Part shown: piece after piece, positions 55,297-56,256 of the stretch
Layout of the letters: each line of letters opens with the position of its first letter
Numbering within the stretch: position 1 is the first letter of the stretch
NCBI RefSeq assembly: GCF_000687715.1
Contig: NZ_JHXD01000002.1
Location: 276,302 to 340,301, forward strand
From: Xylanibacter ruminicola Ga6B6
GTDB lineage: Bacteria > Bacteroidota > Bacteroidia > Bacteroidales > Bacteroidaceae
DNA length: 64,000 nucleotides
Direction: 5' to 3'
Notes under the pieces: model-generated
What the model was told of the DNA's origin: nothing
Seen by the model: the letters and a program-made list of their open reading frames with translations, nothing else
Database searches by the model: none
Made by a program: the position numbers and the translations under genes

Positions 55297-56256
55297 TTAC
55301 TGCTTCGGAACACTCTTCTTCACCTCCACCTTGCGGAACTTGTAGCCGGTGTTGGCTTTGACCTTCACCTCGCTGCCCATCTTCACGCCCTGGAGCTTGC
55401 CCTCGGTGATGTCGCCGGTCTTGTCGGTGCCACCTACAGTAACGGTAGCCTTGCCGGCCTCGATGGTGTTGGCGTTGGCAGCGTTGAACTGGATGTCGAA
55501 CTTGTTGGTGAGCACCTGGACGGTGAGGCAGGCGGGCTCGGTGTTGTCGAAGGTGTTGTCGAGCGTGGCGGCTACACCCTCGGGGGCGTCGGCGCCCTGG
55601 ATGTAGTACCATACGTAGACGGTTGCTCCGTCGTCAGCGATGTCCTTGGCTGTGGGCACTGTGGCGCTGAAGGCGGTGAGTGCGGGGGCCTCGGTGGCTG
55701 AGGTGCCGACGGCGTACATCAGCGTGCCCTGCGTGACCTCGGTGCTCTCTCCGGCGAAGGCCACGATGCCGGTGCCCTCGGCGATGAGCGATGCGTCGGT
55801 GCCGGCGATGACGCCTTCAGCGGCTTCGGGCAGCAGCGGCTTCACTTCGGGCTCGGTGCCGGTGGTGGCGAATGCGGCTGCCTTGGCGTAGATGGGTGTC
55901 AGCACGACGTCGCTGCCGGGCATCGAGAAGGTGCCGGTCTTGGTTGCAGCGTTCCAAGTTACTTCAATGGTGCGTATAACCAAATGGAGGGTTGACTCCT
56001 TTTGGATGTTGTAGTCGTTCAGTGTCTTCGAGTCTTCGAGTTCCTTGCCGGCGAAGATAAGACGCTGCATGTCGGTTGGTATCGACTCTTTGTCCTTGAT
56101 CATTCCTTTCACTTTTAAGATGGTGTAGGTAGATTCAACGTCGAGCGTGATGGTCTTGCCCGTCAGCGTCTTGACGAATATCTGCATGGCGCTTGCCGGT
56201 ACCGCAACCGTGAGTAGCAGCGCGAGCGTCATTATATATCTTGATATTGTTTTCAT
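55297..56256 (-). CDS. Secreted ubiquitin-domain protein fused to a Prevotella surface module
   Basis: Signal peptide of 23 residues ending VPASA, then a ubiquitin domain (residues 24-95, bases 55972-56187) opening MQIFVKTLTGKTITLDVE and closing YNIQKESTLHLVIR. By position, 55 of 72 residues match human ubiquitin. Ubiquitin residues L8, I44, H68, V70 and Lys 6, 11, 27, 33, 48 and 63 are kept; Lys29 is Met. Ala-Ser-Ala sits exactly before Met1. The LRGG tail is absent: TIEVTWN follows and leads into a module (about 100-319) with GTFSMPGSDVVLTPIY, GTLMYAVG and ATVYVWYYIQG that recurs in the next protein. Related to the B. fragilis secreted ubiquitin, but longer. Function unknown. Confidence 0.9.
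   Translation of the reverse strand: MKTISRYIMTLALLLTVAVPASAMQIFVKTLTGKTITLDVESTYTILKVKGMIKDKESIPTDMQRLIFAGKELEDSKTLNDYNIQKESTLHLVIRTIEVTWNAATKTGTFSMPGSDVVLTPIYAKAAAFATTGTEPEVKPLLPEAAEGVIAGTDASLIAEGTGIVAFAGESTEVTQGTLMYAVGTSATEAPALTAFSATVPTAKDIADDGATVYVWYYIQGADAPEGVAATLDNTFDNTEPACLTVQVLTNKFDIQFNAANANTIEAGKATVTVGGTDKTGDITEGKLQGVKMGSEVKVKANTGYKFRKVEVKKSVPKQ
55972..56187 (-). other. Ubiquitin domain within the secreted protein
   Basis: 72 codons from ubiquitin Met1 to Arg72. By eye the DNA of this segment is less G+C-rich than the segment coding for the rest of the same protein. Confidence 0.92.

Follow-up and report, generated by a model that had tools for sequence, protein, structure and literature searches.

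The locus described here raises a simple question: what is a close relative of ubiquitin, an emblem of eukaryotic cell biology, doing behind a predicted bacterial signal peptide, as the first part of a longer protein, in a Prevotella-type genome? The gene lies in a stretch of 64,000 nucleotides of Xylanibacter ruminicola Ga6B6, the whole of which we call the window. Its features, and those of its neighbours, are collected in Table 1.

A ubiquitin domain behind a predicted leader

The reading frame had been placed correctly in the earlier note, which did not mention that it runs on the minus strand. The predicted leader of its product, MKTISRYIMTLALLLTVAVPASA, ends in Ala-Ser-Ala immediately before Met1 of ubiquitin, as judged by a crude rule based on hydrophobicity and the residues preceding Met1, which we used for all leaders. 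The domain that follows is identical to residues 1-72 of human ubiquitin at 55 of 72 positions without a gap, and the human sequence used agrees with the PDB chain aligned to the window protein. Profile searching places the domain in the ubiquitin family: PF00240 matches residues 26-96 with an E-value of 1.1e-25 and 89.6 bits, against a cut-off of 25.4, and residues 24-95 align with PDB ubiquitin chains. L8, I44, H68 and V70 are kept, as are six of the seven lysines, K29 being replaced by Met. The C-terminal Gly-Gly is absent, and Arg72 is followed by TIEVTWNA and by 224 residues in all. The earlier note had read this domain well, since its identity count, its cleavage site exactly before Met1, its intact L8/I44/V70 patch with H68 and six lysines, its continuation of about 220 residues past a missing Gly-Gly and its assignment to the ubiquitin family all stood up to recounting and to the searches.

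Ubiquitin without the Gly-Gly tail cannot be conjugated, and this head can therefore act only as a folded surface. Neither the E2 family PF00179 nor the deubiquitinase family PF00443 has a match in the window genome or in any of the control genomes. By the models used, the window protein carries no T9SS C-terminal sorting domain (TIGR04183 or PF18962) and no surface anchor; the T9SS component SprA (TIGR04189) is encoded in the same genome in one frame, with 2513 bits. Having no recognised anchor or T9SS tail, the protein may stay in the periplasm.

A eukaryote-like domain within a draft genome could be an assembly chimera or a contaminant, or the gene could have decayed, as relatives of the window protein are often longer. 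We regard such an artefact as exceedingly improbable. The genome, of 3.47 Mb, is 99.65% complete and 0.04% contaminated, and the joint between ubiquitin and the following module recurs in two independent Prevotella/Prevotellaceae records (L014 and L015) and in metagenome proteins with 88-94% identity across at least 91% of the query, so the chimera that the earlier note had kept in mind is not what related genomes point to. The frame is open, with dN/dS well below 1 against its nearest relatives, and short forms like this one occur with several heads. GC3 of the ubiquitin domain is 0.71, and that of its Prevotellaceae relatives 0.60-0.71.

Table 1. Features of the ubiquitin-headed gene and of the array around it, in window positions.
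Feature	Position	Strand	Basis or remark
Gene of the ubiquitin-headed mosaic protein	55297..56256	minus	ATG 56256, stop 55297; 319 aa + stop
Leader DNA and first half of signal-peptide DNA, common to genes with other heads	56208..56312	minus	99% over 105 bp to L119 2403-2507
Predicted signal peptide, residues 1-23, ending Ala-Ser-Ala	56188..56256	minus	hydrophobic core and small residue before Met1
Ubiquitin head, residues 24-95 (human ubiquitin 1-72)	55972..56187	minus	identity, PF00240, PDB ubiquitin
Near-constant core module, residues 97-313	55318..55968	minus	predicted all-beta; weak fibronectin/Ig-like match
Short end KSVPKQ and stop (tail-less form)	55297..55317	minus	similar ends in 6 other proteins
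Upstream neighbour: predicted secreted mosaic protein, type-2 core, different head and tail	56318..57607	minus	49% to window core
Downstream neighbour: predicted secreted protein, presumed T9SS-like tail YDLQGRK..KGIYIQNGKKVIVR	53924..55249	minus	array comparison
Array member, InlB B-repeat-like match below Pfam cut-off	52122..53909	minus	Pfam
Array member, other head, presumably FISUMP/Lcl-like end	59292..60584	minus	64% homologue in L118

A conserved core that carries various heads and tails

The earlier note had also seen that the rest of the chain is shared with the neighbouring secreted protein. The sharing is real, at 49% identity over residues 98-226, and the neighbour's product (56318-57607) is the only other match to the window protein in the whole genome at E 0.001. 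Invisible to the author of that note was that, among predicted proteins elsewhere, the module is a core that hardly varies and on which heads and tails are exchanged. A search with residues 97-319 as query found 1687 proteins, and a precomputed ubiquitin domain is present in 18 of the best 120. Our core set consists of 128 core-bearing proteins among the matches listed for two protein searches; two of them, P0001 and the shorter P0021, are the window protein itself with different starts. The cores are 86-100% identical (median 93%), and single-linkage clustering of the 128 proteins sorts the heads into nine clusters and the tails into another nine, some forms having no tail. The ubiquitin head, H2, is found in 26 of the 128, P0001 and P0021 included, and four proteins lack a full head. 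Thirty-three combinations of head and tail are filled, one of which (H3 with no tail) is due to a truncated protein; heads H1, H2 and H3 are each found with tails T1, T2, T3 and T4 (12 of 12), and the ubiquitin head combines with five tail clusters and also with no tail. Six other proteins, P0021 among them, stop five or six residues past the core with ends that include KTPKQ, KAPKQ and KTSTPN, so the window protein, in lacking a tail, seems to be a regular member of the set.

The core, like the head of P0180, has no Pfam match above the cut-off. Its structure model is all-beta, with a pLDDT of 84.3 for the best of five models and 52-64 for the other four, and its resemblance to fibronectin/Ig-like domains is weak; the predicted fold is as would be expected of a stem. 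An X25-like match, slightly below the Pfam cut-off, lies ahead of the window core in P0147. In the sister family, which has the type-2 core of the upstream neighbour, an LRR_5 (BspA-type) or LRR-like domain precedes the core in P0239, P0261 and P0317, and the core is followed by Lcl_C-like, Flg_new and Big_2 matches. Core DNA has a match at E 0.001 in 19 of 200 same-genus genomes (two best candidates scored per genome), and matches of more than 300 bases outside the window genome are found in G117, G173, G138 and G187.

The neighbours of the window gene are members of the same array and a DUF6261 gene. On the minus strand the order is 59292, the DUF6261 gene (57718), 56318, 55297, 53924 and 52122, and all but the DUF6261 gene encode predicted exported mosaics. 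The 53924..55249 product ends in a motif that we take to be a T9SS-like tail and that the TIGR04183 model does not match; the 59292..60584 product, whose end we presume to be FISUMP/Lcl-like, has no Pfam match. Upstream of the DUF6261 gene, at 58889-59140, is a tandem repeat of about 42 bp (reported as 84-nt copies, 64-70% alike).

Related arrays are present in other Prevotella genomes, and in their predicted proteins the ubiquitin head rides on three different bodies. It sits on a window-type core in L014 and L015, and on relatives of the body encoded at 53924..55249 in L016 and L122. L118, whose genome is a single contig, has it on a third body, and the next gene there encodes the window core (88%) behind a different head. 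In the arrays of L120 and L123 the core is joined to other heads, and ubiquitin is absent; elsewhere in the L123 genome, however, a contig end cuts through a ubiquitin-headed gene (L004/L121). In several array genes (L118 8355, L016 3284, P0147), the signal-peptide region holds an odd insert, KREQSQAC.(S/N)FA.., that resembles a repeated, partly palindromic DNA element translated in frame.

Two comparisons place the joints in the DNA. Gene 2459 of L119 has a different head. A stretch of 105 bp that starts 56 bases upstream of the window gene and reaches halfway into the signal peptide is 99% identical to it, the core DNA is 90% identical, and no significant match lies between the leader stretch and the core. 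With the ubiquitin-headed genes L118 10854 and L016 5048, the close match covers the latter half of the signal peptide together with ubiquitin, and the body does not match. These reciprocal matches delimit the exchanged piece, which begins near codon 17 of the signal peptide and ends shortly past Arg72 of ubiquitin; with joints at these two places the head has the character of a recombining cassette. Such joints are what homologous recombination, whether among tandem paralogues or among strains, would leave, and it is probably the route by which they arose. A 32-bp motif at 56279-56310 occurs once in the window, with 0 expected, and a 16-base version of this leader motif occurs four times in the genome when up to one mismatch is allowed; three of the four copies lie in this array. 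Stretches similar to the leader at 56208-56312 also precede several different array genes; the leader may serve as a promoter, as an arm for recombination, or as both.

Conservation of the head and its relatives across phyla

Thirteen Prevotellaceae ubiquitin rows, of which L015 and L095 are identical, were scored by identity to human ubiquitin, with the I44 patch and the TEK-box delimited as we take them to be defined. Mean identity is 0.97 at buried positions, 0.98 in the TEK-box, 0.80 in the I44 patch and 0.58 at positions outside all named sets. T12, K11, E34, G47 and K48 are kept in all 13 rows, V70 in nine and R72 in six. This pattern fits, but does not prove, a partly kept binding face; because buried residues are kept better than the I44 patch, stability alone could explain part of it. 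Among 12 Prevotellaceae ubiquitin domains, 49 of 66 pairs have a finite dS, with a median dN/dS of 0.18, and for the 31 pairs with dS of at most 1.5 the median is 0.22 (range 0.12-1.4, the top value coming from the close pair L005-L010, which has very few changes). Between the window domain and its closest relative, L015, dN is 0.038 and dS 0.186. The ubiquitin head thus appears to be under purifying selection. A tree with other ubiquitins, as proposed in the earlier note, puts the window ubiquitin in a clade of eight Prevotellaceae sequences. Built from 96 rows over 72 columns, it resolves little else, three of its 89 inner branches being starred, and a second Prevotella group (L003, L005, L010, L096) is not joined to the clade of the window.

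Exported ubiquitins are predicted far beyond this family. A scan of one genome per species gave 356 stretches, 243 of which encode a relative, and the best 80 of these 243 loci were kept. A leader ends directly before Met1 in 76 of the best 80, that is, in 75 by the strict rule and in L016, which fails it solely for a Met at -3. Loci with leader and ubiquitin among these best 80 of 243 span 11 named phyla, plus two records without phylum assignment. The sample is tilted towards exported forms, because the query itself carried a leader and one of the search words ran across the cleavage site. A less biased check by PF00240 searches found matches in 11 of 200 genus, 7 of 399 family and 6 of 395 phylum genomes, the window genome being counted in all three sets; 22 loci were examined, with a second copy (L133) left out. 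Twenty of the 22 pass the leader rule, among them L098, which was discarded as a weak partial match. Of the other two, L099 is likewise a weak partial match, and L097 misses the strict rule because a single additional Thr precedes Met1. The leader is clear in 19 of the 22, or in 20 with L097; one of the 19, L013, aligns only from residue 3 of ubiquitin.

Gly-Gly is missing in 73 of the best 80 loci and kept in seven, three of which belong to the four leaderless loci. The leaderless ubiquitins in prokaryote records (L066, L076, L081, L086) are possibly eukaryotic contamination or a different kind of protein. A Pfam scan of 80 proteins (the window protein, L005, L006, L009, L010 and 75 of the 80 loci), covering the 25 commonest families, found an autotransporter barrel in 19, SLH in seven, IPTL-CTERM in three and a T9SS tail in two. 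As these anchor families may overlap, the share of the 80 proteins that show such an anchor is no more than roughly four in ten, and the majority have no recognised anchor. L080 consists of nothing but leader, ubiquitin and an IPTL-CTERM sorting tail, and a ubiquitin-headed protein with a dockerin is found in L082. In Clostridia-type genomes, L021, L028 and L060 encode very long ubiquitin-headed proteins, with 1200 to 1587 residues after the head. A Bacteroidota genome (G902) has two tandem stand-alone ubiquitins that are predicted to be exported (L131, 786-1091 and 1408-1725), one of which ends in Cys-Asn, reminiscent of the C-terminal Cys of BfUbb, the ubiquitin of Bacteroides fragilis.

Bearers include Cohnella phaseoli CECT 7287, Ruminococcus albus 8, Pseudovibrio denitrificans JCM 12308 and Verrucomicrobia bacterium IMCC26134, and also Prochlorococcus and isolates such as Cohnella and Rhodoferax, which are not obviously tied to animals. 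No match was found in 50,697 phage records, and none of the 97 IMG/VR stretches that matched a search word was confirmed. Two of 72,556 plasmid records have a match, pRUMAL01 of Ruminococcus albus 7 (76% identity) and a plasmid of a Pseudoalteromonas (37%). The former (L105, 3932-4672) encodes its ubiquitin family protein on a mobilizable-type plasmid, near dockerin and integrase/transposase-type genes.

Another reading is that the head is an inert, very stable cap, which folds fast and resists proteases and whose surface has no specific partner. In favour of such a cap are the joining of ubiquitin to very different bodies in many phyla, the lack of Gly-Gly in 73 of the best 80 loci, and buried positions that are among the best kept in Prevotellaceae. 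We nevertheless think it unlikely, since the five residues kept in 13 of 13 rows seemingly go beyond the needs of a mere fold, and ubiquitins of other phyla remain close to the human one, though recent transfer could explain that too.

A possible binding head and its nearest known systems

The reading we prefer, and consider somewhat probable, is that the ubiquitin is a swappable binding head outside the cell, carried on a recombining mosaic protein. Predicted cleavage by signal peptidase during export would expose Met1 of ubiquitin as the mature N-terminus, the head would work outside the cell as a binding module, and recombination has probably swapped it for other heads. Its partner could be a ubiquitin-binding protein of a protist or host, or a receptor of rival bacteria. 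The anatomy of the protein, the constant core with varied heads and tails, the same head on different bodies and the two joints can be read directly from the sequences; that the head is shown outside the cell is suggested by its free N-terminus, by other heads on the same core, by LRR-like and X25-like sister heads and by the anchors found elsewhere. More tentatively, ubiquitin may be displayed in many phyla as a surface recognition head, each lineage using its own anchor, with Prevotella having made it an exchangeable head in a recombining tandem-array repertoire. If so, the widespread predicted exported and sometimes anchored ubiquitins would be a common extracellular bacterial module, and the Prevotella array, having one body with many heads, would allow the job of the head to be read from natural alleles.

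The nearest characterised protein that we found is BfUbb. Synthetic BfUbb, of 76 aa, inhibits 13 of 40 B. fragilis strains, and the data of that study suggest that an immunity protein is not required (PMC5705921). BfUbb also inhibits ubiquitination in HeLa extract, and with human E1 it forms a covalent, reducible complex in vitro that is ascribed to its C-terminal Cys (PMC3352274). By analogy, the window head, alone or cleaved from the core, could be a secreted antibacterial that inhibits related Prevotella strains. Like the secreted and inhibitory BfUbb (PMC5705921), it has a leader and no Gly-Gly, and PF00240 is patchily distributed, with matches in 11 of 200 genomes of the genus, as would suit an accessory factor in competition. 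We hold this to be rather unlikely, as BfUbb stands alone whereas the window head is followed by 224 residues, and those sister heads in the same slot that have a Pfam match resemble binding domains rather than toxins. Bovine ubiquitin lacks a BfUbb-like inhibitory activity (PMC5705921), so the fold alone does not predict toxicity.

The activities of BfUbb in HeLa extract and on human E1 (PMC3352274), together with the retention of L8, I44, H68 and V70 in the window head, could instead point to a decoy or inhibitor of the ubiquitin system in a eukaryote, either a host cell or a rumen protist, that takes the protein up. This seems to us quite improbable: the complex with E1 is ascribed to a C-terminal Cys, whereas Arg72 of the window head continues into the 224-residue body and no Cys is found there; no route of delivery into the cytosol is visible; and bearers such as Prochlorococcus, Cohnella and Rhodoferax have no obvious link to animals. 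On balance, the comparison of predicted proteins favours display or binding outside the cell over a role as decoy or toxin.

Before BfUbb, according to Patrick et al. (PMC3352274), ubiquitin was known from eukaryotes alone, a restriction that the predicted proteins in the genome collections used here contradict, and the BfUbb papers treat BfUbb as one of very few bacterial cases (PMC5705921, PMC3352274). The earlier note had thought the window protein different from BfUbb. This holds in that it is an exported-looking, module-fused ubiquitin in a Prevotella-type genome, unlike the stand-alone BfUbb; the suggestion of rarity is not supported, given predicted exported ubiquitin-headed proteins in 11 named phyla. 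In titles and abstracts of open-licence papers we found no account of exported ubiquitin-headed bacterial proteins beyond BfUbb and no description of the Prevotella mosaic array. The finding is also relevant to a suggestion made in PMC3352274, that ubiquitin from gut bacteria might provoke autoimmunity against ubiquitin.

Four known kinds of protein invite comparison. Autotransporter, SLH, IPTL-CTERM and T9SS surface proteins resemble this family in that ubiquitin heads of other lineages are fused to such anchors, but the window protein has none of them by the models used. Eukaryotes make ubiquitin fusions, namely polyubiquitin and ubiquitin-ribosomal proteins, and like these the window protein consists of an N-terminal ubiquitin followed by another protein part; unlike these, it lacks Gly-Gly and has a bacterial signal peptide and a bacterial body. 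Polymorphic toxin systems (PMC3482391) likewise join a constant part to recombining variable cassettes. The core proteins differ from them in varying the N-terminal head as well as the tail, their Pfam-matched heads are of binding type, and the window protein is tail-less after the core, with no toxin domain at the variable end. Among the adjacent genes, which are array members and the DUF6261 gene, none is recognised as an immunity gene. BfUbb comes closest, being also made by a member of the Bacteroidales, with a leader that ends at Met1, high identity to human ubiquitin and no Gly-Gly. BfUbb is a stand-alone protein of 76 aa when mature and ends in Cys, whereas the window head is fused to a core on which alternative heads exist, and its gene lies in a tandem array of mosaics. 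What appears to be new is thus the use of an exported bacterial ubiquitin, known from BfUbb, as an exchangeable head.
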